Shown here: positions 1,786 to 45,687 of the stretch, one piece after another
Position numbering within the stretch: the stretch's first letter is position 1
Layout: each line of letters begins with the position of its first letter
Notes under the pieces: model-generated
The model's database searches: none
What the model was told of the DNA's origin: nothing
The model's input: only the letters and a program-made list of their open reading frames with translations
Program-made: the position numbers and the translations under genes
NCBI GenBank assembly: GCA_015664885.1
Contig: DQPL01000087.1
Coordinates: forward strand, 1-47,221
DNA length: 47,221 bases
Direction of reading: 5' to 3'
DNA from: Gemmatimonadota bacterium
GTDB lineage: Bacteria; Gemmatimonadota; Gemmatimonadetes; Longimicrobiales; Gaopeijiaceae

Positions 1786-3693
1786 CTATCGAGCCTCGCC
1801 CCGCAGTGGCAGGCGGACCACGTCCGCGCGGTCGCCTCGGGTGAGCACCTCCAGATAGAGCCCCGACGCGGCGAAGGCGGTGCGGTCGACTGCGCCGAGT
1901 GACACCTCGCCGGACTGGGCGGTGCGCAGCGGTCCCATGAGTCTATGGACCACGGGCCCCGGGTCGTCGGTGGCGCCGCGGTGGAGGAACACACCCACGA
2001 CGTCGGGAGCGGTCACGCCGGCTACTTCGAGGTCGTACGCCAACGTTCCGGTCGACCAGTCGAAGGCCAATCGACCGGCTAGGCGAATGGTGCCCTCGCT
2101 CGCGATGAGTTGCTCAACGGGCACCGGCGCACGAGCGCCGACGAGCGCGGGCGTGAAGTCCGGAGCGCGGCGCGGTGTGGCGGCCTGCTCGTACGCATAA
2201 GCGAGAGCTACCAACCGCGCGTCAGTGAGGGGAAGCCCCATCATTTCCAGGCCAACCGGGATGCCATCGTTCGTGAAGCCCGCAGGCAGGCTCAACGCCG
2301 GGAAGCCGGAAGAGGCGCTGAGCTGACAATTCGACCCGCGCTGCCGATCGCCGATGCGCGCGGCCTTACGCCGAATCGTTGGGTATACCAGCGCGTCCAG
2401 GTCCTCATCCTCTAGGGCCTGGCGTAGCGCCTCTTGCACCACCGCGCGCTTCGCCAGCGCGGCACGATACTCATCCGAGTCGCGGCTCTCGACCCGGTTC
2501 TGGCGGCGAAAGCTGGTCTCGAGCGCCGCGTGGTTCAGCCCCTGATCGAGCACGTCGCCAAGCGAACGCACGCCAGCGTCAGGCGTTGCCGTCAGGTAGT
2601 CCAACAGGTCGAATTTGAACTCGAATCCTATCACGCTCGAGCCGGCTGCGAGTGAATCGAAGCCGTTGATGGTGACGTCGATCACTGTGGCGCCGAACTC
2701 ACCCATACGCGCCAGGGCGGCGCGTACGATTCCACCCGTCTCACCATCCTCTGGCGCGTCGCCGAAGGACGACGTCAGAATACCCAGTCGGGCGCCATCG
2801 AGGGCGTTTGCATCGAGCGATGCCACGAAGCGCGGAAGCTCGAGGCCTTCAAGGATTCTCGTAGCCGCGTCGTTTGGATCCGGGCCGATCGTCGCGTCGA
2901 GGCCGATCGCGAGGTCCATGACGCTGCGCGCCAAAGGCCCACCAACGTCCTGGGTGTGCGACAGCGGAATGATGCCGTCGATGCTCGAGAGCCCCTTTGT
3001 GGGTCGCAGCCCGAAGAGGTTGTTGTGCGCCGACGGAATGCGGATCGAGCCACAGGTGTCGCTACCCCATCCGATTGCCGCGAAGCTGGCCGCGATGGCG
3101 GCACCGGTGCCACCACTGGAGCCTCCGGGGTTCCGCGTCGGGTCGTACGGGTTCCTCGTCTGTCCACCAAGCCCGCTGATGCTGGTGATCCCCAGGGCCA
3201 GCTCATGAAGGTTCGATTTGCCGAGGATCACGGCTCCGGCCTCGCGCAGCTTCCGGACCTGGAAGGCGTCGTCGGGCGGAATGGAGGTCGCGAGCGCCAC
3301 CGATGCACCGGTCGTCGGCATGTCGAACGTGTCGTAGTTGTCCTTGAGGATGATGGGGATGCCGTGCAGTGGCCCACGCACGTTCCCGCGGGAGCGTTCA
3401 CGATCGAGCGCCTCGGCCTCTTCTCGCGCCCGCGGGTTCAGCATGATCATGGCGTTGAGAGCGGGGCCCTGTTGGCCGTAGGCCGCGATCCGGGCGAGAT
3501 ATGCGTCGATCAGCCCGGCCGAGGTGACGGTGCCGTCGGCGAGCGCGGCCTGCAGCTCCGCAATGCTCGCCTCGTGCACTTCGATTTGCGAAGCGCCCGG
3601 TGTCGGCAGCGCTAATGTCAGCGCGAGCAGGCCGATTGACAGACGGGCTGGCGGCCGCCTGTCTGGGTGGTGGCCCTGGCTTCGATAGCTCAT
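1786..3693 (-). CDS. Secreted amidase (amidase-signature family) with C-terminal CHRD-like domain
   Basis: The product has 635 residues. A Sec signal peptide (about 1-35, ending near PTPGASQ) precedes an amidase-signature domain with the complete Ser-cisSer-Lys triad: Lys117 in ILKDNYDT, Ser192/193 in the GGSSGG motif, and Ser216 in SDTCGSIRIPS. The usual TDTGGS has Cys in place of the first Gly. About 105 extra residues at the C-terminus (roughly 525-632) look like a CHRD domain, with a GVFLHRG...GPVVHRL block and a final YLEVLTRGD segment. The family hydrolyses carboxamides to acid plus ammonia; the substrate is unknown. I chose the ATG just before the signal peptide; an open frame continues upstream but encodes no plausible leader. 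The gene is divergent from the neighbouring alpha/beta hydrolase gene and probably co-transcribed with the DUF6351 gene. Confidence 0.88.
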   Translation of the reverse strand: MSYRSQGHHPDRRPPARLSIGLLALTLALPTPGASQIEVHEASIAELQAALADGTVTSAGLIDAYLARIAAYGQQGPALNAMIMLNPRAREEAEALDRERSRGNVRGPLHGIPIILKDNYDTFDMPTTGASVALATSIPPDDAFQVRKLREAGAVILGKSNLHELALGITSISGLGGQTRNPYDPTRNPGGSSGGTGAAIAASFAAIGWGSDTCGSIRIPSAHNNLFGLRPTKGLSSIDGIIPLSHTQDVGGPLARSVMDLAIGLDATIGPDPNDAATRILEGLELPRFVASLDANALDGARLGILTSSFGDAPEDGETGGIVRAALARMGEFGATVIDVTINGFDSLAAGSSVIGFEFKFDLLDYLTATPDAGVRSLGDVLDQGLNHAALETSFRRQNRVESRDSDEYRAALAKRAVVQEALRQALEDEDLDALVYPTIRRKAARIGDRQRGSNCQLSASSGFPALSLPAGFTNDGIPVGLEMMGLPLTDARLVALAYAYEQAATPRRAPDFTPALVGARAPVPVEQLIASEGTIRLAGRLAFDWSTGTLAYDLEVAGVTAPDVVGVFLHRGATDDPGPVVHRLMGPLRTAQSGEVSLGAVDRTAFAASGLYLEVLTRGDRADVVRLPLRGEAR

Positions 3694-3811
3694 TGGCACA
3701 ACATGCAGTGCCATGCACGTGGTCGCGAGAGGCTGAAGCGCGCCGCGGATGTTGCAGCAGGCGCGTTGAGAGCGAAGGTTGCTCCATCGCTCCAACAACG
3801 CAGGGGGTAGG

Positions 3812-5740
3812 GTGAGGACCTTCCGAGGCTTTGTGCTCTTCGCGGCAGTGTCGATGCTGTTCGTCGCCCCTGAGGCGCGGGCGCAAATCACCCGTATCGA
3901 CCTGGAGCTTGTAGAGTCGCCTGCGCTGGGCGGGCAGAGCTTCGGTGCGGTTGGTGAGTACGAGCGCCTAAGGGGCCGTTTCTATGGTGAGATCGATCCG
4001 GCGGACTCGCGTCACCGGGGCATCGTCAACCTCGAGCACGCTCCCCTCAACGCTAACGGACGGGTCGAATACAGCACGACCGTCGAGATCTACCGCCCGG
4101 TCGACATGCGTCGCTGGAATCGAGCGCTTTACCACACGGTTCCCAATCGCGGCGGCGCCGGCGCGGCCGAAGTGGCTCTCCTGGAGATGGGATTCGCGCT
4201 GGTCCGAGTCGGCTGGCAGGGCGACCTGACGGGGACGGAGACGAACATCGTGCCCTTCCTCCCGGTGGCCCGGAACGCGGACGGCACGTCGATCGTTGGG
4301 CGAGCGCTCGAGGAATTCATCTTCAACGACGCCGAGAGAATCTCGTATGCGACCTTGAGTTACGAGGCGGCGTCCCTCGACCCCACGCATGCCAAGCTCA
4401 CCGTACGTCGCAACCTGGCGGGTCCACGATCGACACCGAGCGATCTGACCTGGAGCTATCGCCACGCCGGCGAGATTCGAATCGAACGCCCATCGGGTTT
4501 CGATGGCGGAGCGATCTATGAGTTTGTGTACCGGGCGAAGGATCCCATCGTCATGGGGCTGGGATTCGCGGCCGTCCGGGACGCCATCTCCTTTCTGCGC
4601 TACGAAACTTCCGACGCGGTCGGCAACGAGAGCCCACTCGCGTTCGAGGGCGGACCGCGCACGGCCATCTCCATCGGGATTTCGCAGAGCGGCCGCTTCC
4701 TCCGCGACCTGCTCTACCAGGGGTTCAACGAAGATGTGCGAGGCCGCGTCGTCTTCGACGGCATGCACGCCAACATCGCCGGCTCACGGAAGACTTTCAC
4801 CAACTACCAGTTCAGCCAGCCGGGACGTTGGCAGAAGCAGCACGAGGATCACTTTTTTCCCGGCGACCAGTTCCCGTTCACGTACACGACGCTCTACGAC
4901 CCGATAAGCGGACGGACGGATGGCCTTCTGGAATCGTGTTCTGGCTCGGACACCTGCCCCAAGATCATTCAGAGCGACGGCGAGGCCGAGATCTGGCAGG
5001 CTAGAGCGTCTTTGTTGGTTACCGATCCGGCCGGAGGACACATCGAACTGCCGGACAACGTGCGCGTCTATCTGATCTCGGGCACTCGGCACGGCGGTGG
5101 TGGAGGCGTGCACGTCGCGACTCCGCGCGCCGGGATTTGTCAGAACCTCAACAATCCGCTGGCCATGCGAGATATCCGCTCGGCGATGTCCGTCGCCCTT
5201 TATGGCTGGGTGGCGGACGGAACCGTGCCCCCCCCGAGCCGCTTTCCCACGGTCGCCAATGGCGGTTTGGTGTCAGCGCCGGAGCTTGGGTTCCCGCGTA
5301 CTCCGGGCGTGACCTACTCGGGCAGCTACAACCCGCTCCGTCTGAACGATCACGGCTCATTTCCTCCCAAGCAGGGGACCGCCTACACCGTGCTCGTCGG
5401 CAGGGTCGATGCCGATGGCAACATGACCGACGGCGTCCGCCACCCGAACCTGACTGTCCCCATCGGCACTCACACAGGCTGGAACCTGCGACGCGAGGGC
5501 TTCGCCGAGGGTGCCCAGTGCGCTGGGGCTGGATCATTCATCCCGTTCGAGGCCGACCTAGCGGCGCGGAAGGCTGCGGGAGACCCTCGCCTTTCGCTAG
5601 AGGAGCGCTACTCGAGCCACGACGCTTATGTGAGAGCAGTGGCCCGCGCGGCTAATGAGCTCGTTCGAGATCGACTGCTGCTCGAGGCCGACGCGGAGGC
5701 CATCGTGCGGCTCGCTCAGCAGAGCTCGGTGCGCCGATAG
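3812..5740 (+). CDS. Secreted alpha/beta hydrolase domain protein (Abhydrolase_10-like)
   Basis: This 642-residue protein has a short Sec signal peptide ending at APEARAQ. It contains the block GISQSGRFLRD followed by YQGFNED, which I recognise from the large secreted alpha/beta hydrolases of the Abhydrolase_10 family; the Ser of GISQSG is the likely nucleophile. The N-terminal half (SFGAVGEYERLRGRFYGEID and later VPNRGG) is also typical of that group. The substrate is unknown, probably an ester. I chose the GTG start because a purine-rich AGGGGG sits about 5 bases upstream and the signal peptide follows directly. An ATG 33 bases further upstream is possible but adds an unlikely leader. The gene diverges from the amidase across a 118-bp gap that must hold both promoters; I see no clear operator there. 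Confidence 0.82.
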   Translation: MRTFRGFVLFAAVSMLFVAPEARAQITRIDLELVESPALGGQSFGAVGEYERLRGRFYGEIDPADSRHRGIVNLEHAPLNANGRVEYSTTVEIYRPVDMRRWNRALYHTVPNRGGAGAAEVALLEMGFALVRVGWQGDLTGTETNIVPFLPVARNADGTSIVGRALEEFIFNDAERISYATLSYEAASLDPTHAKLTVRRNLAGPRSTPSDLTWSYRHAGEIRIERPSGFDGGAIYEFVYRAKDPIVMGLGFAAVRDAISFLRYETSDAVGNESPLAFEGGPRTAISIGISQSGRFLRDLLYQGFNEDVRGRVVFDGMHANIAGSRKTFTNYQFSQPGRWQKQHEDHFFPGDQFPFTYTTLYDPISGRTDGLLESCSGSDTCPKIIQSDGEAEIWQARASLLVTDPAGGHIELPDNVRVYLISGTRHGGGGGVHVATPRAGICQNLNNPLAMRDIRSAMSVALYGWVADGTVPPPSRFPTVANGGLVSAPELGFPRTPGVTYSGSYNPLRLNDHGSFPPKQGTAYTVLVGRVDADGNMTDGVRHPNLTVPIGTHTGWNLRREGFAEGAQCAGAGSFIPFEADLAARKAAGDPRLSLEERYSSHDAYVRAVARAANELVRDRLLLEADAEAIVRLAQQSSVRR

Positions 5741-19768: not shown

Positions 19769-20488
19769 CTAGACGCCGATGTAGGCTCGACGCACCTCGG
19801 GATTGTCGACCAGGGTGTCGCGGTCCCCCTCGATGGCCACGCTCCCGCTTTCGATCACGTACCCCCTCTTCGCCACCTTCAACGCAGCATGGGCGTTTTG
19901 TTCGGCGAGGAACACAGCAGTGCCGCGTCGGTTGATCTCGAGGATCGATTCGAAGACCTCCTCGACCACCAGGGGGGCCAGGCCCAGAGACGGCTCATCG
20001 AGAAGCAGCAGCCGCGGGCGCGCCATGAGCGCACGCCCGATTGACAGCATCTGTTGCTGGCCTCCGGACAGGGTCCCGGCGGCGTCGCCTGCCTTCGCCC
20101 GCAGCATGGGAAAGAGATCGAAGACCTCCTCCATGGACTCCTGGACTCCAGCGGGGTCTTTGCGCCGCACGTAGGCGCCCAGTAGCAGGTTCTTGCGCAC
20201 GGAAGCCTCGGTGAACAAGTGCTTACCTTCGGGCGCGTGGGCCACGCCCTCCCGAACGATTCGGTGGGCGGCAAGGCGACTGATGTCCTGTCCGTCGAAG
20301 TGGATCGTTCCTTCCGAAGGGCGCTCCAGTCCGCTGACGGCCCGAAAGAGAGTGCTTTTCCCAGCACCGTTGGCGCCGAGCAGTACGACGATTTCACCCT
20401 CCGCGACCGATACGCTCACTTGCCGCAGAGCCAAGAAGGTACCGAACTGTACGCTCACCCCCTTGAGTTCGAGCATGGGCTCAGGCAT
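19769..20488 (-). CDS. livF: Branched-chain amino acid-type ABC transporter ATP-binding protein LivF
   Basis: This 239-residue ABC ATPase has Walker [10 protein letters not shown] (38-46), the signature LSGGQQQM, and Walker [14 protein letters not shown] followed by the switch His region. The EGRxVFxxxSVxENL-type block typical of LivF appears as [20 protein letters not shown]. It powers import with LivG. Its start overlaps the end of livG by 8 bases, indicating translational coupling. The substrate is set by the binding protein and need not be leucine, given the catabolic genes downstream. Confidence 0.95.
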
Positions 20489-21254
20489 GGCTGCTCCCCC
20501 CCAGGTACGCGTCGATGACCGTGGGGTCGCCTCGAATCTCTTCCGGCGTGCCCTCCGCGATCTTCTTCCCCTGATTCAGCACGACGATCCGGTCTGAGAG
20601 GTCCATGACCATGCGCATCTTGTGCTCGACCAAGCAGACGGCGATCCCGCTCTCCACCACTTTACGGATGAGCGCCGTGAGTCCGCTCGTCTCCTCTTCG
20701 TTGATGCCCGCCGCGGGCTCATCCAGCAGCAGCAACTGGGGCTCCGCCACGAGAGCCAGCGCGATGGCGACGCGCTTTCGGGCCTCCTGTGGGATGCTGC
20801 CCACCGGGAGAGCCTCCAGGTGCAGCACGCCGGCGAACTCCAGCGCCTGCCTGGCCCTTTCGCGGCACTCGGCGGCCTCGGTGCGAAGCCGCTTGGTGCG
20901 CAGAATCGCATCGAGCACGTTGCTCTTCGTATGCTGCCGTCGGCCGATGATGACGTTGTCGAGCACCTCGGCTTCAGGGAATAGCTTCGTAGTCTGGAAG
21001 GTGCGCGCCACGCCCAGACGGGCGATGCGGTGAGGAGCGAGCCCGGTGACGTCCACGCCGTTTAAAGCGACGCGGCCCGTAGTCGGTGTGCAGAAACCGC
21101 TCACCACGTTGAAGAACGTCGACTTCCCGGCACCGTTGGGTCCGATCACGGCGGTAATCTCCCCCTCCGGCACGTCGAGGTCGACGTCATCCACCGCCTT
21201 CAGCCCACCGAAGTGCATGCCTAGGTGTTCCACGCGTAGCAACGGGGCGCTCAT
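20481..21254 (-). CDS. livG: Branched-chain amino acid-type ABC transporter ATP-binding protein LivG
   Basis: This 257-residue ABC ATPase has Walker A GPNGAGKST, Walker B LLLLDEPAAGIN and the LivG-typical GVARTFQ block. The family's signature motif is degenerate here (GSIPQEARKRVAIA in place of LSGGQ), whereas Walker A and B are intact. LivG members vary at this point (often LSYGQQR), so the change may be tolerated. I place the start at the ATG that overlaps the livM stop as ATGA. A GTG nine bases upstream is also in frame. It pairs with LivF as the second ATPase of the importer. Confidence 0.93.
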   Translation of the reverse strand: MSAPLLRVEHLGMHFGGLKAVDDVDLDVPEGEITAVIGPNGAGKSTFFNVVSGFCTPTTGRVALNGVDVTGLAPHRIARLGVARTFQTTKLFPEAEVLDNVIIGRRQHTKSNVLDAILRTKRLRTEAAECRERARQALEFAGVLHLEALPVGSIPQEARKRVAIALALVAEPQLLLLDEPAAGINEEETSGLTALIRKVVESGIAVCLVEHKMRMVMDLSDRIVVLNQGKKIAEGTPEEIRGDPTVIDAYLGGSSHA

Positions 21255-22198
21255 CGTCTCCACCGTTCAGGCAGGAGCTTGGCCAGCCCCGCCAGGCCCT
21301 TGGGGAAGAAGATGATCACGACCACCAGGATCGGTCCGAGCGCCATCATCTGATATTCCGCGAACGCCTGCAGGAACTGCATCAGGCCCGTCACCAGCAG
21401 CGTGCCCACCAGCGGGCCTGCGAGCGAGGCCACGCCGCCGATCATGAGATATACCAGCATCATGAACGTCATCTGGACGCCGCCCATGGCTGGCCCGATG
21501 TAACCCAGGAAGACCGCGTAGAGCGCTCCGCCAAGACCCGCCAGCGCCGCCGAGATGACGAATGAGAGCTGATGCGTTTTGCCCGCGTCGATGCCCACGG
21601 CGCGAGCCAGTTCCTCGCTGTTGCGGACCGCGACGAACGTGCGTCCGACCAGGGAGTTCACAAGGCTCCACACGACATAGATCGTGAGCACGAGGAAGAA
21701 GAGCACGAGGTAGTACTGCGCGGTGAGTGAATCGAAGCGCAGGGGGCCGATGCTGGAGGGCGGGGGAATCCCGATGAGTCCGTCGGTCCCTCCGGTAACG
21801 CCCTCCCATCGCTCGATGATGATCACGATCATCACCCCAACCGCGAGCGTGAAGATCGCAAAGTAGTCGCCGCGCGTGCGCAACGCGGCAAGGCCGATCA
21901 CGTAGCCTAGCGCAGCGGTCATCACCACAGCCGCTGGCAGAGCTATCCAGAAGGAGACCTCGTAGGTGGCCATCAGGATGCCGGCGCTATAACCGCCGAT
22001 CCCGAAGAACCCCCCTTGGGCAAGAGACAACTCCCCGGTGTAGCCGAGCATGACGTCCAGCCCATAAACCGCGATCGCGGTCACGTAGGCCGTAATGACC
22101 ACGCTGACGAGGTAGGGGTTGTCCACGAGCAAGGGGAAAAGGATTGCGGTCAGCAGCAGGAGCGAGAGGGCGACGCCCCGGGCGGGAGGCAAGCGCAC
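21251..22198 (-). CDS. livM: Branched-chain amino acid-type ABC transporter permease LivM
   Basis: This 315-residue permease has about nine hydrophobic segments and the BPD_transp_2 pattern. The block LDVMLGYTGELSLAQGGFFGIGG is the classic LivM opening. VRNSEELARAVGIDAGKTHQLSF is the conserved cytoplasmic coupling loop that contacts the ATPase. It starts with GTG three bases after the livH stop, with a G-rich binding site inside the end of livH, and ends in a 4-base ATGA overlap with livG. Confidence 0.95.
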   Translation of the reverse strand: MRLPPARGVALSLLLLTAILFPLLVDNPYLVSVVITAYVTAIAVYGLDVMLGYTGELSLAQGGFFGIGGYSAGILMATYEVSFWIALPAAVVMTAALGYVIGLAALRTRGDYFAIFTLAVGVMIVIIIERWEGVTGGTDGLIGIPPPSSIGPLRFDSLTAQYYLVLFFLVLTIYVVWSLVNSLVGRTFVAVRNSEELARAVGIDAGKTHQLSFVISAALAGLGGALYAVFLGYIGPAMGGVQMTFMMLVYLMIGGVASLAGPLVGTLLVTGLMQFLQAFAEYQMMALGPILVVVIIFFPKGLAGLAKLLPERWRR

Positions 22199-22201
22199 CG
22201 C

Positions 22202-23062
22202 TCAGACCCCCTTCTGGAAAAGGCCCGTCGGCCGGATCACGAGCACCAGCACCAACAGTCCGAAGGCGATCAACTCGGAGAAGGCGAACGACACATAGGT
22301 CCCGGCCATGGTTTCCGCCAAAGCCAACAAGTATCCGCCGAGGATGGCCCCTGGGACGCTTCCCATGCCTCCCAGGATCACGATGACGAACGCTTTCAGA
22401 ATGATGAGCTCGCCCATGTTGGGGAACACCAACAAGAGTGGCGCGATCAAGGATCCGGCGACTGCCGCGAGAGCTCCGGAGATCGCGAATGTGAGCAACG
22501 CGACCCGGCGTGTGTCGATGCCGACGAGAAGCGCGCCCTCGCGGTCCTGCGCCATGGCCTCGATGCTCATCCCCACGAGGGTCCGCTTCAGCAGCAGATA
22601 GAGCCCGACCATCGTCACGACCGCTGCGACTATGACCAGGATGCGCTGCTCGGTGATGTTGACGCCCAGGAGCGTGACGACGCCGTCGAAGGGCGTGGGC
22701 ACCTGTCGGAAGGTGGGGCCCCAGATGACGTCTGCCGTGCCTTCCATGAAGAAGAGCAGACCGAGTGCCGCAATCATCGAATGCACCGGGGTTTTGCCTT
22801 CCAGCCGGCGGAAGACGAGCCACTCCATGCTGCCGCCCAACACCGCCAGCACCACGACGGAAACGGCCATCGCGACGATGTAGGAGGCCCCGAACGACGT
22901 CAGCATCACGTAGCTGACGTACGCTCCGGCCATATATAGCGCGCCGTGCGCGAAGTTGGGCACTTTGAGTACGCCGTATACGAGCGTCAGGCCCAGTGCG
23001 ACCAGGCTGTACACGCTGCCTAGCGCGATGCCGTTTACAAACTGCTGTAAGAAGAGGGTCAA
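22202..23062 (-). CDS. livH: Branched-chain amino acid-type ABC transporter permease LivH
   Basis: This 286-residue permease begins LFLQQFVNGIALGSVYSLVALG, the standard LivH N-terminus. The coupling loop appears as MSIEAMAQDREGALLVGID, followed by ILGGMGSVPGAILGG. About eight membrane segments are visible. The start codon is TTG; the protein begins at the expected place and no better start lies nearby. It is 45 bp downstream of the binding-protein gene and forms the second permease of the importer with LivM. Confidence 0.94.
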   Translation of the reverse strand: MTLFLQQFVNGIALGSVYSLVALGLTLVYGVLKVPNFAHGALYMAGAYVSYVMLTSFGASYIVAMAVSVVVLAVLGGSMEWLVFRRLEGKTPVHSMIAALGLLFFMEGTADVIWGPTFRQVPTPFDGVVTLLGVNITEQRILVIVAAVVTMVGLYLLLKRTLVGMSIEAMAQDREGALLVGIDTRRVALLTFAISGALAAVAGSLIAPLLLVFPNMGELIILKAFVIVILGGMGSVPGAILGGYLLALAETMAGTYVSFAFSELIAFGLLVLVLVIRPTGLFQKGV

Positions 23063-23107
23063 CTGACGGTGGCCCTCAACTCCGGCGGGCGATTACGGTG
23101 CAAGCCA

Positions 23108-24331
23108 CTAGGGCGCGCCGCCGGGAACGGGGATCCTTATCGACACGAACTCTCCGTCCACGATGTGGGCCGTGAATACGTCACGCGTAATGAGGCCGAC
23201 GTCGGTAACCCCCGCCACCTCGTAGACGCGGACCTCCTGGGGAAGCGTTCGTGCCGCTTCGTCTGCGCGGGCGCGGATGGCTTCTGGGTCCGTGGTGGTA
23301 CCTGCCAGCGTCATGGCGCGCGCGATCAAGTAGAGCGCCTGATAGTTGATCGCGATTTCGCTGGTCGGAGACGGAGAGTCCGCACCGAAGCGCTCGTAGT
23401 AGCGCGCAGCGAAAAGAGGTGCGCCGGGCGTCGGGTAGGTCTCCACCGGATAGACTCCGATCGCCCCCTCCAGAGACTCGATGGGCACGATGTCCAACAT
23501 CTCCATGAACTTGGCCTGATCCATGATGAGCAACCCGCCTTCAAAGCCCTGCTCGCGGGCTGCCCTGATCACGAGCGCGGTGGGCTGAGACGGGCCACCG
23601 ATGAAGAGCACGTCGGGTTCGTCGGCCAGCGCTCGGCTCACCGCACCTGTGAAATCCGTGGTCGTGTTGTAGTCCACGCCGTGGTCGCGTCCCAGCGTCC
23701 CTCCTTGGCGCGTCCACTCGGCTGAGACGGCCTCGGTCCATGCGCGGCCGTACGCGGTAGTCGTCGGGACCAGCGCCAGCCGAGTCCCGAACCGCCCCAT
23801 CATCACTTCCACCCATGGCTCTTGGTACCCGTCGAAGCGGGGGGGAAGCATCAGCATCAGAGGGTTCTCAGCCTCCAGGATGCTCGGCTCGCTGCTGTAG
23901 GCCGCCAGCAGGAACTTGGGCTCACGCGTGTTCATCTCCTGGACCACGCGAATGCCTCCGGCGTGCGGTACCAGGATCACCGGGGTCTGGTTCTGCTGGA
24001 GAAGCCGACGCACGGCGGTGGCCGTTTCATAGGGCAGGTAGCGGTCATCCAAAGAGACGATCTCGAACCGGAACCGTCGGCCATCGACCTCGAAGCCTCC
24101 GGCCTCGGCGATTTCGTCGGCCGCCATGGTGATGCCGCGCTGCACGTTCCTACCGTAGTAGGCGGCTCCACCACTCAGCGGCCCCACGAAGCCGATGTTC
24201 ACGACCTCCAAGCCGTCGGAGTCGGTTCCGCCTTGGCCGTCTCCTGAGCACCCCGTCGCCAGCAGCAGTCCAGCGAGAAGAACCGTGCCGAGCGAGCGTG
24301 GCCGGTCGCGAATCGGATGGTCTGACATCAT
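23108..24331 (-). CDS. livK: ABC transporter substrate-binding lipoprotein (LivK-like)
   Basis: This 407-residue periplasmic binding protein has the lipobox LLATGC (Cys28). The mature part is a type I periplasmic-binding fold: NIGFVGPLSGGAAYYGRNVQRG at the start, VPHAGGIRVVQEM, and VVIRAAREQGFEGG-like segments further on. Members of this group bind amino acids, but also amides, urea or aromatic and aliphatic acids, so the ligand cannot be read from the sequence. I chose the first of two adjacent ATG codons; GGGAGG lies about 11 bases upstream. Its position directly after an acyl-CoA synthetase gene suggests an organic acid ligand. The symbol reflects the family only. Confidence 0.9.
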   Translation of the reverse strand: MMSDHPIRDRPRSLGTVLLAGLLLATGCSGDGQGGTDSDGLEVVNIGFVGPLSGGAAYYGRNVQRGITMAADEIAEAGGFEVDGRRFRFEIVSLDDRYLPYETATAVRRLLQQNQTPVILVPHAGGIRVVQEMNTREPKFLLAAYSSEPSILEAENPLMLMLPPRFDGYQEPWVEVMMGRFGTRLALVPTTTAYGRAWTEAVSAEWTRQGGTLGRDHGVDYNTTTDFTGAVSRALADEPDVLFIGGPSQPTALVIRAAREQGFEGGLLIMDQAKFMEMLDIVPIESLEGAIGVYPVETYPTPGAPLFAARYYERFGADSPSPTSEIAINYQALYLIARAMTLAGTTTDPEAIRARADEAARTLPQEVRVYEVAGVTDVGLITRDVFTAHIVDGEFVSIRIPVPGGAP

Positions 24332-24427
24332 GGACTCAGGCGCCTCCCACAATTCGGAATGGCCGGCCGGCTTGCCCACCACTGCACGAGCGTAGATCTG
24401 TGGGTGGACGACGGCAAGTGACCGCCT

Positions 24428-26044
24428 TCACTCGGCCTCCCTCAACTCCACCCGCCGGATCTTGCCCGAGATAGTCTTGGGCAATTCCTCGACGTATTCG
24501 ATCTCTCGCGGATACTTGTAGGGCGCCGTTACTGACTTGACGTGTGCCTGGATCTGTTCGGTGAGCTCGTCCGATCCGGTGAAGCCTGGCGCCAGGATGA
24601 TGTACGCCTTCACGACTTGGCCCCGTTCGCGGTTCGGCTTGCCCACCACTGCGGCCTCGGCGACGGACGGATGCTCGATGAGCGCCGACTCGACCTCGAA
24701 CGGTCCAATGCGATAGGCCGCTGAGAGGATCACGTCGTCCGCGCGGCCGATGAACCAGATGTAGCCGTCTTCGTCACGGCGGCCTCGATCGCCGGTATAG
24801 TACCAGCCATTGCGGAAGACTTCGGCGGTAAGCTCAGGGTCTTTCCAGTAGCCCCGGAACAGTCCGATGGGCCACTCGTCGGTGCGCACGGCGATGTGGC
24901 CTTCTTCGTAGTCCTCGAGCACTCGACCGTCGTCGTCGATCACGTCGACTTGCATGCCCGGCGCGGGACGTCCCATCGAGCCTGGCTTGACCGGCTCGGA
25001 GGGGTGGTTCACCACAAGACAGACCGACTCGGTCTGGCCGTACCCGTCGTAGGGAGTCGTGCCGGTGGCTTTTTGCCACACCTGGATGACCTCTGGGTTC
25101 AGCGGCTCGCCCGCCGCCGTGCAGTGGCGCAGTGACGACCAGTCGTACGCGGAGAGGTCGAGCTGGGTGAATGCGCGATAGATGGTTGGCGGCGCGCAAA
25201 ACGAAGTCACCCCGAGCTCCCCGATCAACTCGAGCATGCGCGCCAGGTCCGGCTTGCCGACGATGTTCCACATCACCACGGTGGAGCCGACGATCCATTG
25301 CCCGAATAGCTTGCCCCACGCGGCTTTGGCCCATCCGGTGTCGGACACCGTCCAGTGGATGTCATCGGGGCTGAGGTCCTGCCAGAAGCGCGCCGTGATT
25401 TCGTGACCGAGCGCATACGACTGCACGTGCTGGACCATCTTCGGCTGCCCAGTCGTGCCCGACGTGAAGTAGAGCAAAAGGGCGTCGTCAGCCGTCGTTC
25501 GTGCGGCCGCCGCTGGCTCGGCGGGCGCCTCCGAGAGTGCCTGCCGCCAGTCGATCCATCCTTCGCGCGAACTTCCGGCGACGAAAAGAGCCCGCAGCGA
25601 CGGACAGTCCGCGCGCACCCGGTCCAGTCTCTCCGCGCCCTCGTCGTCGACGATGGCGACGGATGCGCCGGCGCGGTTGATGCGATACGCCTGGTCCTTG
25701 GACATGAGCTGCGTCGTTCCAGGCATGGGGACTGCACCGATCTTGAATGCGCCTAGCAAGGCTGAGTACCAATCGATGACGCGCGGCAGTTGCACGAAGA
25801 TGTGGTCGCCTTTTTCGACCCCTCGTGCCCGCAGCACGTGGGCGGCGCGATCCCCCAGCGTAGATAGTTCGCCGAAAGTGTACCGGAGCACGGTGCGCCC
25901 GTCCGGTTGCACCGCGATGAGCGCGAGTCGGTCGGGCTCCTTATTAGCCCAGTCGTCGATGACGTCGCGCGTGAAGTTGAATTCTGCGGGCACGTCGATT
26001 CTGAAGCTCGCCCGAGCTTCGCTGTCGTGGCTCATACTCGGCAT
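24428..26044 (-). CDS. Acyl-CoA synthetase (AMP-forming, medium-chain type)
   Basis: This 538-residue adenylate-forming enzyme contains the P-loop-like TSGTTGQPKM (194-203), the A5 motif DGYGQTESV, the A7/A8 block YTGDRGRRDEDGYIWFIGRADDVI, and the A10 motif KTISGKIRR with catalytic Lys528. The overall pattern (GQTES, TGDRG) is closest to medium-chain or aromatic acyl-CoA synthetases of the ACSM kind. It would convert a carboxylic acid, CoA and ATP to acyl-CoA. I chose the ATG with GAGGAGG six bases upstream. It is the first gene of the probable operon and diverges from the formate dehydrogenase genes. The acid could be the imported substrate or a product of the downstream dehalogenase and ThDP enzyme. 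Confidence 0.93.
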   Translation of the reverse strand: MPSMSHDSEARASFRIDVPAEFNFTRDVIDDWANKEPDRLALIAVQPDGRTVLRYTFGELSTLGDRAAHVLRARGVEKGDHIFVQLPRVIDWYSALLGAFKIGAVPMPGTTQLMSKDQAYRINRAGASVAIVDDEGAERLDRVRADCPSLRALFVAGSSREGWIDWRQALSEAPAEPAAAARTTADDALLLYFTSGTTGQPKMVQHVQSYALGHEITARFWQDLSPDDIHWTVSDTGWAKAAWGKLFGQWIVGSTVVMWNIVGKPDLARMLELIGELGVTSFCAPPTIYRAFTQLDLSAYDWSSLRHCTAAGEPLNPEVIQVWQKATGTTPYDGYGQTESVCLVVNHPSEPVKPGSMGRPAPGMQVDVIDDDGRVLEDYEEGHIAVRTDEWPIGLFRGYWKDPELTAEVFRNGWYYTGDRGRRDEDGYIWFIGRADDVILSAAYRIGPFEVESALIEHPSVAEAAVVGKPNRERGQVVKAYIILAPGFTGSDELTEQIQAHVKSVTAPYKYPREIEYVEELPKTISGKIRRVELREAE

Positions 26045-26230
26045 CGCCAGCCTCCTCGGCCGCCAAAAGGCTCCCCTCGCCAACCTCCGCGACGCCATAA
26101 TGGTTGGCCTCGCGCCAATGCGCACGGCCGGAGCGGCGCTTCCCGTCCTTGCTAGCCGCCCCAGCCAGACCTACCGTGCCCTTCGGCCGACTACGCAGCA
26201 CAGAACTGCTCGTTGAACTGAGGGAGACGC

Positions 26231-40390: not shown

Positions 40391-42493
40391 ATGTTCCCTC
40401 GTTCCTGGACGTCTGCCGCCGCCCCCTGGGTCGCTTTGGCGCTGGCCGTGTTCGGTTTGCTCGGTGTTTGGGCCTTCGTCGATCTTACGCCTGAGGTTTC
40501 GGGCGACTTCTTCTTCGCCGAAGACGACCCACAGCTTCAGGCGTCGCGACAGATAGCCGAGCGATACGGCTCCGGCTCCCTGATCGTCGTTCGCGCGGCA
40601 GACCTTCGCGGCGACCGAGACGCATACGAGGAGCGAATAGAGAGCCTCACCGAGGCGCTCGCGGCCATCGACGGCATCTCCGCCACTTATAGCATCACGA
40701 CGGACGATCCGAACATCTCTCCGTTGTTCCGCCGAGTTCTGCTGACGCCCGACTCGAGCGCGACCAACGTCATTCTGACCGTCGAAGACGCCGATCCGGA
40801 AGCCCTGCTGGTTAGCCTCGAGCAGCTGATCGAGGCGCATGACGGGCCCGACCTCGACATCGTGATGTCGGGCGTCCCGGTCATCGTAGAGCTGATCCGT
40901 AGGAATCTCTTTCGCGACCTAGTGATCTTCAGCCTCGCGGCGGCGCTCGTCTTCGGAATCCTGATCGCTTTGATTTACCGCGACGCGGCCATCGTGGTGG
41001 GCACGCTGACGACGTGCTTCGTGTCCGTCAGCGCCACGCTGATGATCACGCAGGTGCTCGGCGTTGGCATCGGGCTGCTCACCGCGAACCTCGTCACGAT
41101 CGTGTTCGTGCTCACGCTATCGCATGTGGTATTTCTGACTGCGAATTGGTTGCGCGTCAGTCAAACCGAGACCGATAAGGGCGAGGCACTGCGCCAGGGC
41201 GTCCAGCACACGCTGGAGAGTTCGTTCTGGAGCATGACGACCACTTTGTTGGGCTTCCTCAGCCTGCTCGTCGCCACCGCGAAGCCGCTTCGGGAACTCG
41301 GCATCGCGGGCGCCATCGGGACGCTGACTGCGATCGCGGTGGCCTACACGGTCTACCCCGCTTTTCTCGGCAGATGGGCGTCGGCAAGAGCGCGTCCCGA
41401 GCGCGTGACTGAAGTCGGTTCGCCGGCCGGCAGCAACATGGTGGTGGGGGTGACCGCTGCGATCGTGGTCCTACTGGGCGTCGGAACGCTCCGAGTCGAT
41501 ACCGATCCAGGCCTTCTGACCTACTTCGCCAAAGGGGGCGAGCTACGCGACGGGCTCGAGCGCATCGATGCGGATGGTGGCAGTAGTGCGTTGGACATCA
41601 TCATCCGCGACGCGGAGGGCGGCCGCATCGATTCCGACGTCGTTTTCCAGAAGATGCAGGCCATGCAGGCGGCGCTCGAGGCGGACTCGGCGGTGGGGGT
41701 GGTACTGGGCCCCTCGGTATTGCTCGAGCACGCGCGCACGTTGCCGCTGGCTCGCTTCATGAGCTTGGAGGTTCTGCTGGATATGGCCTCGAACCCGCAG
41801 CTCGGATCGGTCGGTCTGGGTTATGTGTCCGAAGAACGCGACGAGGGCCACTACTTCTTGCGCATGCGCGAGGCGGTCGATGAGCCTTCCCGTGACGCGG
41901 TCACCGACCGGTTGCGTTCGCATGTCCGAGAGGCGGGGCTCGAGCCGGTACTCGTGGGGGGGCTCTGGGACCTGCAGGCTCAGCTCGGCAAGCTGATTCT
42001 GGCGAGCCTCAAGATCGGGATCGGAGGTCTGCTCTTGCTCTTCCTTGGCGTGGCGTTCGTAGTGTCTCGCTCGCTAGCGACGACCGCGCGCATGTGGGTG
42101 TGCCTGGCGGGTATCCCGCTGGTAGTGCTGGGTATCTTCGGCCATTTGGGTATTGCCATCGACATCATCACCTCACCCGCAGCGAACGTAGCGCTCGCGA
42201 TGGGGGTCGACTCGATGATCCATCTGGTGGTTCGAGTCCGGCGGCTGACGAGTTCGGGTGTGCCGGCACCTTGGGCCGTCGCTCTTAGCCAGATTCGGGC
42301 GCCGGTGCTCGGCGCGACGGGCATCATATGTGCGGGCTTCGGCATATTCGTCCTGTCGACCTTCCCGCCCACGCAGCGGTTCGGCCTGGCTGTGATTCTG
42401 GGCACGGTTACGGCCGCGACGATGGCGTTGGTGGTGCTGCCGAGGATGGTTTCGCGACCGGTCGCTAGTGAATCACAAGTGACGGCTGCCTGA
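40391..42493 (+). CDS. RND-superfamily exporter (MMPL type)
   Basis: This 700-residue membrane protein is built as two similar halves, each with one helix, a periplasmic loop, and about five helices. The first half has VALALAVFGLLGVWAF, a loop with DFFFAEDDPQLQASRQIAERYG, and the GIGLLTANLVTIVFVLTLSH block. In the second half the equivalent block is ITSPAANVALAMGVDSMIHL, the typical RND/MMPL position for proton-relay residues. Such proteins export lipids, hopanoids or hydrophobic compounds by proton motive force; the substrate is unknown. GGAGGT is placed six bases before the ATG. It is divergent from the NTF2-like gene with a 63-bp gap. No membrane-fusion or outer-membrane partner gene is adjacent. 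Confidence 0.9.
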   Translation: MFPRSWTSAAAPWVALALAVFGLLGVWAFVDLTPEVSGDFFFAEDDPQLQASRQIAERYGSGSLIVVRAADLRGDRDAYEERIESLTEALAAIDGISATYSITTDDPNISPLFRRVLLTPDSSATNVILTVEDADPEALLVSLEQLIEAHDGPDLDIVMSGVPVIVELIRRNLFRDLVIFSLAAALVFGILIALIYRDAAIVVGTLTTCFVSVSATLMITQVLGVGIGLLTANLVTIVFVLTLSHVVFLTANWLRVSQTETDKGEALRQGVQHTLESSFWSMTTTLLGFLSLLVATAKPLRELGIAGAIGTLTAIAVAYTVYPAFLGRWASARARPERVTEVGSPAGSNMVVGVTAAIVVLLGVGTLRVDTDPGLLTYFAKGGELRDGLERIDADGGSSALDIIIRDAEGGRIDSDVVFQKMQAMQAALEADSAVGVVLGPSVLLEHARTLPLARFMSLEVLLDMASNPQLGSVGLGYVSEERDEGHYFLRMREAVDEPSRDAVTDRLRSHVREAGLEPVLVGGLWDLQAQLGKLILASLKIGIGGLLLLFLGVAFVVSRSLATTARMWVCLAGIPLVVLGIFGHLGIAIDIITSPAANVALAMGVDSMIHLVVRVRRLTSSGVPAPWAVALSQIRAPVLGATGIICAGFGIFVLSTFPPTQRFGLAVILGTVTAATMALVVLPRMVSRPVASESQVTAA

Positions 42494-42730
42494 ACGACGC
42501 CGGACTCCCCGCATATTCGGCGCGGATTTCGCCGAGCCGCTGGGCTAGTGTGCCCCGTGAAAGCCACAGCCCACGCGCCATGCTTGGCCGACCGCGTCCT
42601 CGCCCCTTACGTACGACGTGGGGCACGAAGACTGTCGGCAGCGCCGCATCGCTTGCGCCATCTCCGCACGAGCGGGCAGCTTGCGCCGCTGGCCGATCGC
42701 CCCTCAGCACCTCAACGCCTATGCACCCCG

Positions 42731-44233
42731 ATGTCTGACGCAGCCGCGCCCGCGACGACTTCCACCGGACTCGCTCGCCGGCTCGGCTTCATGGGCCTGG
42801 CCGCAACCGGGATTTGCTCCATGCTCGGCGCGGCGATCAACGTCGTTCCGTTCATGTTGCAGAGGAACGTGCCGGGGATCGGACCCTACGTGATGCAGGC
42901 GTACCTGTTCGCGGCCGTTCCGGCGATTCTCGCGGCCCTCGCGTATGCGATCCTGGCGTCCGCGATGCCCCGTGCCGGGGGGAGCTACATCTATGCCAGC
43001 AGGGGCTTGCATCCGTACCTGGGCTTCGTCGCGAGTTTCTCTCAGTGGTTCGGACTATCGATCGCGATCGGCGTCGTCTCCTACGTGCTGATCCCGTTCG
43101 TGCGGGACGTTTTCGCGGCGCTCGGCATCGACGGGATCGCCGCACTCCTGGACACGGGCCCGGTCCGGGTCGGATTGGCGCTTGCGTTCCTGTGGACCTC
43201 GGTGGCCATCAACATGCGCGGCCTGCAGCTCTACGAGCGCATCCTGGTACCGCTCATGTTCCTGATGTTCGTTCTGGGCGGCGTCGTGATCGTCGCCGGG
43301 TTCTTGTTCGACCAAGGCGACTTCGCCGCCGGGCTGCTCGCGAGTGAAGGCGTGACCGTGCCCGATGCGGCGCCCGCCGAGTTCAGTTGGACGAGCTTCC
43401 TCGCGGCGTCGGCGATCCTCTTCTCGAGCTTCATCGGATTCGACTCCATCGCTCAAGCCGGAGGAGAGGCCAAGAACCCCGGGCGTTCGCTCCCGCTCGC
43501 GATCGGTGTCTCGGTCGTGACGGTTGGCACCTTCTATCTGCTCTTCACGGCGGCGGTGTACCACACGGTGCCATGGCAGTTCGTGGCGGAGCGAGCGCTG
43601 AGCCAAGACCTCACCGCGCCAGGCCTGCTCGGCTATGTGCTCTCGCCCACTTGGACCGTGCTCATCGTCCTAGGGGCGGCGATCGCCCTCGTAAACGACT
43701 TGCCAGCCATGCTTCTCGCGGTGTCGCGTCTCATGTTTGCGTGGGCTGAGGATGGTGTCTTTCCAAAGGCCGTGAGCAGGGTGCACGAGCGCTGGCACAC
43801 GCCCACGGTGGCGCTGATGCTCAGCGGGCTGATGGCATCGGCCGCCATCCTCGGAAGTCACTTCGCTGGCGACTTCTTCCTGGGCGTGGACATCCTCGTC
43901 ACGTCGATGCTGGTGAACTTCATGGTGATGTGCATGGCGGTGCTATGGCTCCCCAGGATCAATCCGGGCATCGCGGCCGACGTGACCGTTGTCCCGAACC
44001 GGAGGCTTCAGGTACCCCTAGCCGTCGCGGGCATCGCGCTGTTGCTTGTCTTCCTGGTCGTGCACGTGCGCAAGGACCTCACGGCAGAGCTGGACGCGTG
44101 GTATTTCCATTCGACGCCTCTTTGGCTGATTGTGCTCGGCATCGCGTCTTTGATTTATGCACGTGAGCTGAGCCGCCTGAAGAAGAGCGGAGTCGATACG
44201 CATCAGCTCTTCCGCACGCTTCCCCCGGAATGA
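42731..44233 (+). CDS. APC-superfamily amino acid/polyamine permease
   Basis: This 500-residue permease has about 12 membrane helices. The first carries the APC pattern LGFMGLAATGICSMLGAAINVVP, near the substrate site. Helix 3 begins MPRAGGSYIYASRGLHPYLGF, and the FIGFDSIAQAGGEAKNPGRS segment is the conserved block of helix 6 and loop 6 in this superfamily. The substrate is likely an amino acid or amine. The ATG at SDAAAP follows 61 open but non-coding-looking codons that continue the same frame upstream; I exclude these because they are Arg/His/Pro-rich without membrane character. The gene overlaps the next one by four bases (ATGA), so the two are translationally coupled. Confidence 0.88.
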   Translation: MSDAAAPATTSTGLARRLGFMGLAATGICSMLGAAINVVPFMLQRNVPGIGPYVMQAYLFAAVPAILAALAYAILASAMPRAGGSYIYASRGLHPYLGFVASFSQWFGLSIAIGVVSYVLIPFVRDVFAALGIDGIAALLDTGPVRVGLALAFLWTSVAINMRGLQLYERILVPLMFLMFVLGGVVIVAGFLFDQGDFAAGLLASEGVTVPDAAPAEFSWTSFLAASAILFSSFIGFDSIAQAGGEAKNPGRSLPLAIGVSVVTVGTFYLLFTAAVYHTVPWQFVAERALSQDLTAPGLLGYVLSPTWTVLIVLGAAIALVNDLPAMLLAVSRLMFAWAEDGVFPKAVSRVHERWHTPTVALMLSGLMASAAILGSHFAGDFFLGVDILVTSMLVNFMVMCMAVLWLPRINPGIAADVTVVPNRRLQVPLAVAGIALLLVFLVVHVRKDLTAELDAWYFHSTPLWLIVLGIASLIYARELSRLKKSGVDTHQLFRTLPPE

Positions 44234-45687
44234 GTCCGATGATGGAGCGATTCGAGCTGGCACCCGGGTTACAGATCTCCCGCGTGCTCACGGGGCTCTG
44301 GCAGGTCGCTGACATGGAGCGGGACGGAACAGAGGTGGATCTCGACGCCGCTGCCCAGGAGATGGACCGCTACGTCGAGGCTGGACTCACCACTTTCGAC
44401 ATGGCCGACCACTATGGCTCTTCGGAGCTGATCGCTGGGCGCTACGAGGCTATGCGGCCCAATGCCTCGCAACTGCTCACCAAGTGGGTGCCCAAGCCCG
44501 GTCCGGTCACCAGGGACAGCGTGCGAGGCGCGGTCGAGCTCGCATGCGAGCGCATGGGCCGGCAACAACTCGACCTGCTTCAGTTCCACGCGTGGAGCTA
44601 CGCGGACCCTGGCTGGCTCGACTGCATGTTCGAGTTGCAGGCCCTCAAGGACGAAGGGCTGATCCGCCATCTGGGTCTCACGAACACCGACACCGTCCAT
44701 CTGCGCATGCTCGTGGAGAGCGGCATCGAAATCGCGTCGAATCAGGTCAGTTACTCGCTTCTCGACCAGCGAGCATCGGGCGCCATGACCGAATTGTGTC
44801 TCGAGCATGGCGTGCACCTGCTGGCATTCGGGACCGTGGCGGGAGGCTTCTTCACGGAGCGCTGGTTGGGTGCGCCGGAGCCGGCCATGGACGAGCTCGA
44901 GACCTGGTCGAAGATGAAGTACAAGCGCTTCATCGATGCCGCCGGAGGCTGGCAGAAGTTCCAGTCCGTGCTTTCTACGGTCGCCGACGTGGCGGCTCGC
45001 CTGAACGCCTCCGTGGCCAACGTAGCTTGCAGGCACATCCTAGACGCGCCCGCCGTTGCAGGCATCATCGTGGGGGCCCGATTGCTTCACAGTGAACACA
45101 TCGACGACACCCTCACGCTCTTCGACTTCACGCTCGACGAAGAGGGGTCCAGCGCGATCGCTTCGGCGCTCGGCGAGCTAGACGCCATCCATGGCGACTG
45201 CGGCGACGAATACCGCCAGCCACCGTTCTTGACCGCCGCGGGGGACCTGAGCGACCACTTCGACGAGTTCCCTCCGCCTTACCCGACTCAGGTCGGAGGG
45301 GACGGTCGCAAGAGGGCATCGAGCGGGACGGTCTGGGAGGACGTGGCCGGCTTCAGTCGGGCGGTCAGAAAGGGGAATCGGATCTTCGTGTCTGGCACGA
45401 CCGCCACGCACGGGGACAGGTTGATCGGCGGCTCGGACGCGGCGAGCCAAACCCACTTCATCATCGACAAGATCGAGGGTGCCATCCGCTCGCTCGGGGG
45501 TCGGCTCGAAGACGTAGTGCGCACACGAATCTTTATTCATGACCCGGCCGTCTGGGAGCCCGTCTCGCGTGCCCACGGGGCTCGCTTCTCCCAGATCCGG
45601 CCCGCCAACACGCTGGTAAACGCTGGTCTCATCGGGGAAGGGTACTTGGTGGAGATGGAGGCCGAAGCGATTGTAGAAGATGTTTGA
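44230..45687 (+). CDS. Aldo/keto reductase-RidA (Rid family) fusion protein
   Basis: This 485-residue protein has two domains. The aldo/keto reductase barrel (about 8-320) has the full catalytic tetrad: Asp57 and Tyr62 in FDMADHYGSSE, Lys85 in LLTKWVP, and His120 in LLQFHAWSY. A linker (about 320-350) leads to a RidA/YjgF domain (about 350-485) beginning VAGFSRAVRKGNRIFVSGTT. Its segment SQIRPANTLVNAGLIGEGYLVEMEAEAI aligns with the RidA active site, where the catalytic Arg (PARSCV in E. coli RidA) is replaced. The Rid part may thus bind rather than hydrolyse imines. Coupling to the APC permease suggests a role in amino-acid or amine-derived metabolite turnover. The expected reductase cofactor is NADPH. 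Confidence 0.9.
   Translation: MSPMMERFELAPGLQISRVLTGLWQVADMERDGTEVDLDAAAQEMDRYVEAGLTTFDMADHYGSSELIAGRYEAMRPNASQLLTKWVPKPGPVTRDSVRGAVELACERMGRQQLDLLQFHAWSYADPGWLDCMFELQALKDEGLIRHLGLTNTDTVHLRMLVESGIEIASNQVSYSLLDQRASGAMTELCLEHGVHLLAFGTVAGGFFTERWLGAPEPAMDELETWSKMKYKRFIDAAGGWQKFQSVLSTVADVAARLNASVANVACRHILDAPAVAGIIVGARLLHSEHIDDTLTLFDFTLDEEGSSAIASALGELDAIHGDCGDEYRQPPFLTAAGDLSDHFDEFPPPYPTQVGGDGRKRASSGTVWEDVAGFSRAVRKGNRIFVSGTTATHGDRLIGGSDAASQTHFIIDKIEGAIRSLGGRLEDVVRTRIFIHDPAVWEPVSRAHGARFSQIRPANTLVNAGLIGEGYLVEMEAEAIVEDV

Follow-up and report, generated by a model that had tools for sequence, protein, structure and literature searches.

A recurrent fusion of an aldo/keto reductase with an arginine-less Rid domain, paired with amino-acid-type transporters in distant bacteria

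The systems closest to the one described here are the RidA deaminases, the Rid proteins near Rv2704 that have no catalytic arginine (Arg), Rid domains that form modules of larger enzymes, and the aldo/keto reductase (AKR) superfamily. The pocket of TdcF, as given in the part of Burman et al. (PMC1884159) cited here, includes Tyr17, Gly31, Asn56, Asn88, Arg105, Pro114 and Glu120. The 2015 survey of Niehaus et al. (PMC4433059), in the passages on which we draw, states that Rid1 to Rid3 retain the Arg and that Rid4 to Rid7 are without it, its occurrence being variable in Rid5 and Rid6, and calls Rid4 to Rid7 'mysterious', with no activity then known. In Dph6-type fusions and tandem Rid proteins, the Rid domain is joined to an adenine-nucleotide hydrolase domain or to other Rids (PMC3585130 and PMC4433059, in the passages cited). 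Here, we report a Rid domain that is likewise a module of a larger enzyme, but whose partner is an oxidoreductase. It was found in a 47,221-nucleotide (nt) stretch of DNA from a Gemmatimonadota bacterium (contig DQPL01000087.1 of GenBank assembly GCA_015664885.1, positions 1 to 47,221; hereafter, the window). A single gene at 44230..45687 on the + strand encodes an AKR barrel followed by a Rid domain without the Arg, and the gene upstream encodes an amino-acid permease.

The same reductase-Rid fusion, paired with transporter genes, was identified in distant bacteria. In a scan of named genomes, from which the best 80 of 550 related stretches were analyzed with phyla taken from record titles, it occurred in Gemmatimonadota, Bacteroidota, Chloroflexota, Acidobacteriota, Neomarinimicrobiota, KSB1, Calditrichia, Planctomycetota, and Gamma- and Deltaproteobacteria. 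Across 60 other loci, the fusion was conserved, with 49-73% identity. A scan of relatives yielded 14 genomes with both domains in one open frame. A relative of the permease ended no more than 300 nt upstream of the fusion, on the same strand, in 68 of the 80 named loci and lay further upstream in four more; apart from the permease, no cluster of neighboring genes was present in more than nine of the 80. Alphaproteobacteria carry the fusion too, on plasmids, where 17 records contained at least 80% of it. Twelve of the 13 plasmid records inspected for neighbors had a Liv-type ABC transporter together with a second AKR (AKR2) and a TIGR04076 protein (annotated only as 'hypothetical' in one of them). 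The fusion directly followed annotated Liv genes in nine plasmid loci, and was separated from them by an annotation-free gap in a tenth; a GntR regulator was present in 11 plasmid fusion loci. In the thirteenth locus, from Antarctobacter, the fusion was divergent from an amino-acid ABC transporter, with polyamine-type transport and glutamine-synthetase-type genes nearby. All 13 plasmid records label the fusion merely as 'aldo/keto reductase'. Because the pairing recurs in distant bacteria, the fusion probably belongs to an undescribed uptake-and-processing pathway for a small amine-containing compound. Within such an uptake-linked pathway, we tentatively read it as a bifunctional enzyme, with a probability of roughly 0.4.

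The fusion gene is one uninterrupted open reading frame (ORF) of 485 amino acids. Its AKR barrel (residues 21-312; 44290..45165, +) matched Pfam PF00248 Aldo_ket_red (E 3.9e-48) and its Rid domain (residues 372-481; 45343..45672, +) matched PF01042 Ribonuc_L-PSP (E 1.2e-17), in agreement with the preliminary description of this DNA, which had placed both in one polypeptide. That description had also proposed a complete AKR tetrad, a coupling to transport and a four-base overlap between the permease and fusion genes. The catalytic Asp-Tyr-Lys-His tetrad, which for this family is taken to be D57 (codon 44398-44400), Y62 (44413-44415), K85 (44482-44484) and H120 (44587-44589), all on the + strand, is indeed complete, the four residues being kept in 93, 94, 93 and 93, respectively, of 94 aligned fusions (the window, 13 from the scan of relatives and 80 from the named-genome scan). 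The coupling to transport is borne out by the APC and Liv-type neighbors counted above. The overlap stands in part: the TGA (44231-44233) of the APC-family amino-acid permease gene (42548..44233, +; Pfam AA_permease_2, E 4.9e-39) and the fusion ATG at 44230 do share an ATGA, but the overlap holds only for this first ATG, and the other possible starts, ATG 44239 and ATG 44242, would leave a short gap to the permease instead. The best NCBIfam model for the permease was TIGR00909, with a score under its cut-off.

Among the 60 loci with a placeable start, the permease and fusion genes overlapped in 10, were 0-30 nt apart in 30, 31-100 nt apart in 15 and further apart in five, one of these last being a likely start misplacement; the spacing was between -47 and +30 nt in 40 of the 60. 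A permease-AKR-Rid triple fusion, hinted at by odd gaps, was not found when the 68 loci were re-checked. A gene-call artefact or a chance run-on of two genes was also rejected, because the same fusion formed one open frame in 80 of 80 named loci and because the sampled fusion Rid domains form one clade. Upstream of the permease gene in the window lies an MMPL-family transporter gene (40391-42493, +), whose cluster comprises the window and eight loci, all titled Gemmatimonadota, Gemmatimonadetes or Gemmatimonadales. Elsewhere in the window, a gene for a Liv-type periplasmic binding protein (23111-24382, -) is adjoined by an AMP-binding ligase gene (24431-26125); several overlapping ORFs in 20481-26125 (-), a region in which the binding protein and the ligase were scanned, may be the rest of the transporter.

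Distribution within individual groups was patchy. The fusion was present in 64 of 121 genomes of the window's family (one further row was ambiguous), and both domains lay in one match in 24 of 118 genomes of the Algoriphagus ornithinivorans family, one of these matches beginning at residue 54 and four rows reporting one stop codon inside the match. In the Chloroflexota and Planctomycetota samples, the only genomes with the fusion were the seed genomes themselves (1/151 and 1/149, respectively). This pattern suggests that the fusion spread between lineages. The search for the same fusion elsewhere that the preliminary description had proposed thus returned full-length copies across many phyla, and its alternative of two separate genes in nearly all relatives is not what we found, both halves being present in all 80 named loci. 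In addition, neither the scan of relatives nor that of the Algoriphagus ornithinivorans family contained an AKR half of more than 42% identity apart from a Rid half.

The pocket of the Rid domain is conserved in the fusions, in a form different from that of RidA deaminases. Counterparts of the seven TdcF positions, in the order given above, are F/Y375, G389, K414, S/A/T446, N460, G469 and E475; as a check of these columns, an Arg-bearing RidA of the same genome (L001) reads Y, G, N, N, R, P, E. Three positions are kept, namely Tyr17 as Phe/Tyr375, G389 and E475 (45652-45654, +). The other four are replaced, by K414, a small residue (S/A/T) at 446 and G469 in 94 of 94 fusions, and by Asn at the position of Arg105 (N460; 45607-45609, +) in 93, the remaining one having Thr. 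The fusion resembles RidA deaminases in the Rid fold, the Gly31 and Glu120 equivalents and an aromatic residue at Tyr17, but differs in the equivalents of Arg105, Asn88, Asn56 and Pro114; it is therefore not expected to deaminate alpha-imino acids. R377, R433, H449 and W369 were invariant in all 94 fusions, R377 and R433 being candidates for the Arg elsewhere in the pocket that the preliminary description had considered, and the seven pocket columns had a mean conservation of 0.90 vs 0.76 for the remaining Rid domain. The near-invariance of key columns contradicts a degenerate Rid domain, and the alignment indicates a pocket that is conserved but re-specified (N460, K414, R433, H449 and E475) and so probably not dead. 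Because several positions equivalent to those of the RidA pocket are conserved, the domain may catalyze a step of its own rather than just capture an intermediate.

Modeled separately, the Rid part had a predicted local distance difference test score (pLDDT) of 93.5 and was closest in fold to RutC and Rv2704 (3i7t), both with Z 19.6, the latter with a root-mean-square deviation (rmsd) of 1.3 Å over 117 aligned residues and 44% identity; all 50 fold matches listed for it were Rid-type structures (Z 16.4-19.6). Seven stand-alone Arg-less Rids, one from the same genome (L005) and six from relatives (L025-L030), share W369, E370, R377, Q407, R431, R433, H449, G450, P458 and E475 with the fusion, and Rv2704 shares most of these residues, but not W369 or G450. 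The Arg-less Rids near Rv2704 are probably Rid6 / YjgF_like_6 (cd06154) of Niehaus et al. 2015, a candidate label that draws in part on the table of that survey. They are like the fusion in signature residues, fold and the absence of Arg at 460; they stand alone, however, with Thr (five of the seven), Ser (one) or Ala (one) at this position, whereas the fusion has Asn460 and Lys414, an N-terminal AKR and an adjacent transporter gene.

A tree of 41 Rid rows combined 23 fusions from the set of 94, four from a set of 12 plasmid fusions, 13 rows of stand-alone or tandem Rids, and Rv2704. All 27 fusion rows grouped in one clade (98/100), which fell toward Rv2704 and the Arg-less Rids, in keeping with the shared residues; the deep split from three Arg-bearing rows of the RidA set is rough, with support of 93/97 and long branches, and is drawn open. 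Judged by the single clade of these 27 chosen fusions, the fusion is old. Most likely, the Arg was not lost in the fusion; instead, an Arg-less Rid was acquired a single time, and Asn460 and Lys414 became fixed afterwards. The preliminary description was right that the catalytic Arg is absent, but its statement that the Arg had been lost is misleading, because Arg-less Rid relatives, including the nearest solved one, Rv2704, share this absence. Two further Rid proteins were observed in passing. In the same genome, a 490-amino-acid open frame (G000:C65, ~3329-4447; L007, L009 and L010) contains three tandem Rid domains that read Ser, Ser and Thr at the Arg105 column, so that it is not 3x-RidA in the strict sense, and two Thioclava plasmids (L118 and L188) have an extra stand-alone 'Rid family hydrolase' gene (1315-1668) near the fusion cluster.

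The inter-domain segment (residues 322-343; 45193..45258, +) was more conserved than either domain, with a mean of 94% vs 70% for the AKR and 76% for the remainder of the Rid domain (94 fusions); the 14 residues after 343 dropped to 51%. In an AlphaFold2 model of the whole fusion (mean pLDDT 90.1, predicted template modeling score 0.91, 49 sequences), confidence was lowest at residues 331-350 (pLDDT blocks of 57 and 69), which cover the second half of this linker and the residues just beyond. Because the linker is near-invariant yet loosely predicted in a single chain, it is a candidate for folding on a neighboring subunit or on a ligand. A linker conserved above either domain is also what a structural joint would look like, and the alternative that survives best gives the Rid domain a non-catalytic part, as a scaffold or a sensor of ligands, in which it would trimerize the AKR and perhaps bind substrate or product allosterically while the AKR does all the chemistry. 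Consistent with it, none of Arg105, Asn88 and Pro114 of the RidA pocket is retained, and yeast Dph6 needs its Rid-type domains while the human orthologue does without them (PMC3585130, in the passage cited). However, E475 (the equivalent of RidA Glu120), R433, H449 and N460 are near invariant across phyla, beyond what a plain scaffold would seem to need, and we regard this alternative as doubtful.

By sequence, the barrel belongs to the AKR superfamily, with PF00248 across it and the tetrad present. Its fold matches were headed by radial spoke protein 5 (Z 31.8, rmsd 2.4, 307 aligned, 25% identity), followed by 4xk2 (31.4), DepB (30.9) and Tas (30.8), differences in Z under 1 being ties. Solved AKRs, among them DepB, AKR11 members, E. 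coli Tas and Chlamydomonas radial spoke protein 5, are alike in barrel fold and tetrad, but have 16-25% identity to the fusion barrel among the 50 matches listed, and no AKR match in this or the other structure listings was named as a Rid fusion. The flagellar radial spoke protein 5 of Chlamydomonas (PDB 7jtk/7jrj), which tops the list in a tie with others, has a GGW..Q stretch in common with the fusion (residues 142-274), and AKR2 matches the same stretch. Attempts to name the substrate through solved relatives of the permease, the substrate-binding protein or AKR2 returned just broad amino-acid transporters and general AKRs. The only fusion with a broken tetrad (L021, G004:C153:5947-7389; S57, T85 and D120) is also the one with Thr at 460 in place of Asn; here, both active sites seem, from the alignment, to have been altered together, as though they serve one function.

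AKR2 was a further recurrent neighbor. Among 31 loci with a recognized AKR2, a TIGR04076 gene lay within four genes in 19, and transporters within the same distance were NhaC-type (PF03553) in 13, SNF-type (PF00209) in six and Liv-type in three; two more loci had peptide ABC genes. In the window's family, AKR2 was present in 40 of 64 genomes with the fusion vs 5 of 57 others (Fisher p 4e-10, uncorrected for kinship), and in the Neomarinimicrobiota genome of L048, a TIGR04076 gene, AKR2, LivGFHM and a binding protein face the fusion (L173). AKR2 is a frequent but optional partner of the fusion. AKR2, TIGR04076 and interchangeable amino-acid-type transporters also form a recurrent cassette of their own (e.g., L171, L172, L173, L175, L180 and L131), sometimes with a DUF885 gene. 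A helicase, an amidohydrolase and other large neighbors of AKR2 were discarded as pathway partners, as they vary by locus or look like unrelated local genes. On TIGR04076 function, the open-access literature yielded one paper, with a vague guess only.

Plasmid loci with AKR2 and Liv genes but without the fusion offered a clue to the chemistry. Three were inspected, the absence of the fusion being judged from these loci. One had a DAO-type flavoenzyme at the end of the transporter genes, nearest to L-pipecolate oxidase AmaA (NCBIfam) with a score under the cut-off, and another had an aspartate-dehydrogenase-like protein in the same slot. Because both replacements are C-N bond redox enzymes, the analogy hints that the fusion may act on an amine/imine pair.

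The presence of two related AKRs in one cluster in 12 of 13 plasmid loci, and their co-occurrence in the window's family, would also fit a redox pair, in which an alcohol is oxidized by one AKR and the ketone reduced by the other, with net epimerization or isomerization of an imported hydroxy-amino compound and the Rid domain aiding enolization. Solved AKRs near the barrel include DepB, whose role we assume to be in epimerization, and two others titled deoxynivalenol detoxification or epimerization (7utf and 9wk1). However, identity to DepB is only ~24% and an AKR2 match was absent from 27 of 44 fusion genomes, which leaves a redox pair distinctly improbable.

Under the bifunctional reading, the APC permease, or the Liv-type ABC transporter in other lineages, would import the substrate, and the AKR barrel is predicted to oxidize or reduce the imported compound with NAD(P)(H). 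The Rid domain would be expected to trimerize, thereby holding three AKR barrels together, and its inter-subunit cleft may handle the intermediate as a reactive imine, enamine or enol, the pocket presumably no longer gripping an alpha-carboxylate through Arg105. The fusion itself, its folds and conserved positions, and its linkage to transporter genes are shown here, as is a partial association with AKR2 and TIGR04076; that the Rid domain trimerizes and is catalytic, in which order and direction the steps run, and that the substrate is an amine are what we infer. Capture of an imine followed by its reduction, as imagined in the preliminary description, would be one version of this account.

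Several observations weigh against the bifunctional, uptake-linked reading. No APC gene was found in the examined flank of eight of the 80 named loci, some of these flanks being short, and a Liv transporter was present in just two of the eight. Seven of the 31 AKR2 loci had no recognized transporter inside four genes. Across many phyla, just 17 of 44 fusion genomes had AKR2, and in the Algoriphagus ornithinivorans family it was found in 3 of 24 genomes with the fusion vs 2 of 94 without. The slot occupied by redox enzymes in two fusion-free plasmid loci was empty in the third (L135), and the pocket-column conservation of 0.90 was reached by 1088 of 20000 random column sets. The least probable alternative, to which we give a slight chance, is that the fusion detoxifies, scavenging a reactive aldehyde or imine that accompanies or results from the uptake of amino acids, so that it would serve damage control rather than a nutrient pathway: RidA proteins pre-empt imine damage (PMC4433059, in the part cited) and several of the nearest solved AKRs bear stress or detoxification names, but the tight tie to dedicated transporters, together with the plasmid GntR regulator and substrate-binding protein, looks like a nutrient system.

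The bifunctional reading also has a more far-reaching version, in which the Arg-less Rid joined to a dehydrogenase would resolve the imine or enamine formed from an imported amine nutrient (by hydrolysis, tautomerization or hand-over for reduction), the linker would move or close at hand-over, and the pathway, with its interchangeable transporters, AKR2 and TIGR04076, would amount to a new system of nutrient use that has spread horizontally; we consider this full version unlikely. No open-access paper on the function of Rid6 or Rv2704 was found by title, and the titles and abstract openings listed in searches of an open-access library contained no AKR-Rid fusion, nor its transporter coupling or pathway. 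Both families are known, and the fusion belongs to each of them by sequence and fold; it is their combination that was not found in print. An Arg-less Rid joined to a redox enzyme, with a transporter gene alongside, offers a concrete entry point to the orphan Rid subfamilies. The pathway suggested here would give a function both to a protein annotated just as 'aldo/keto reductase' and to this kind of TIGR04076 protein.

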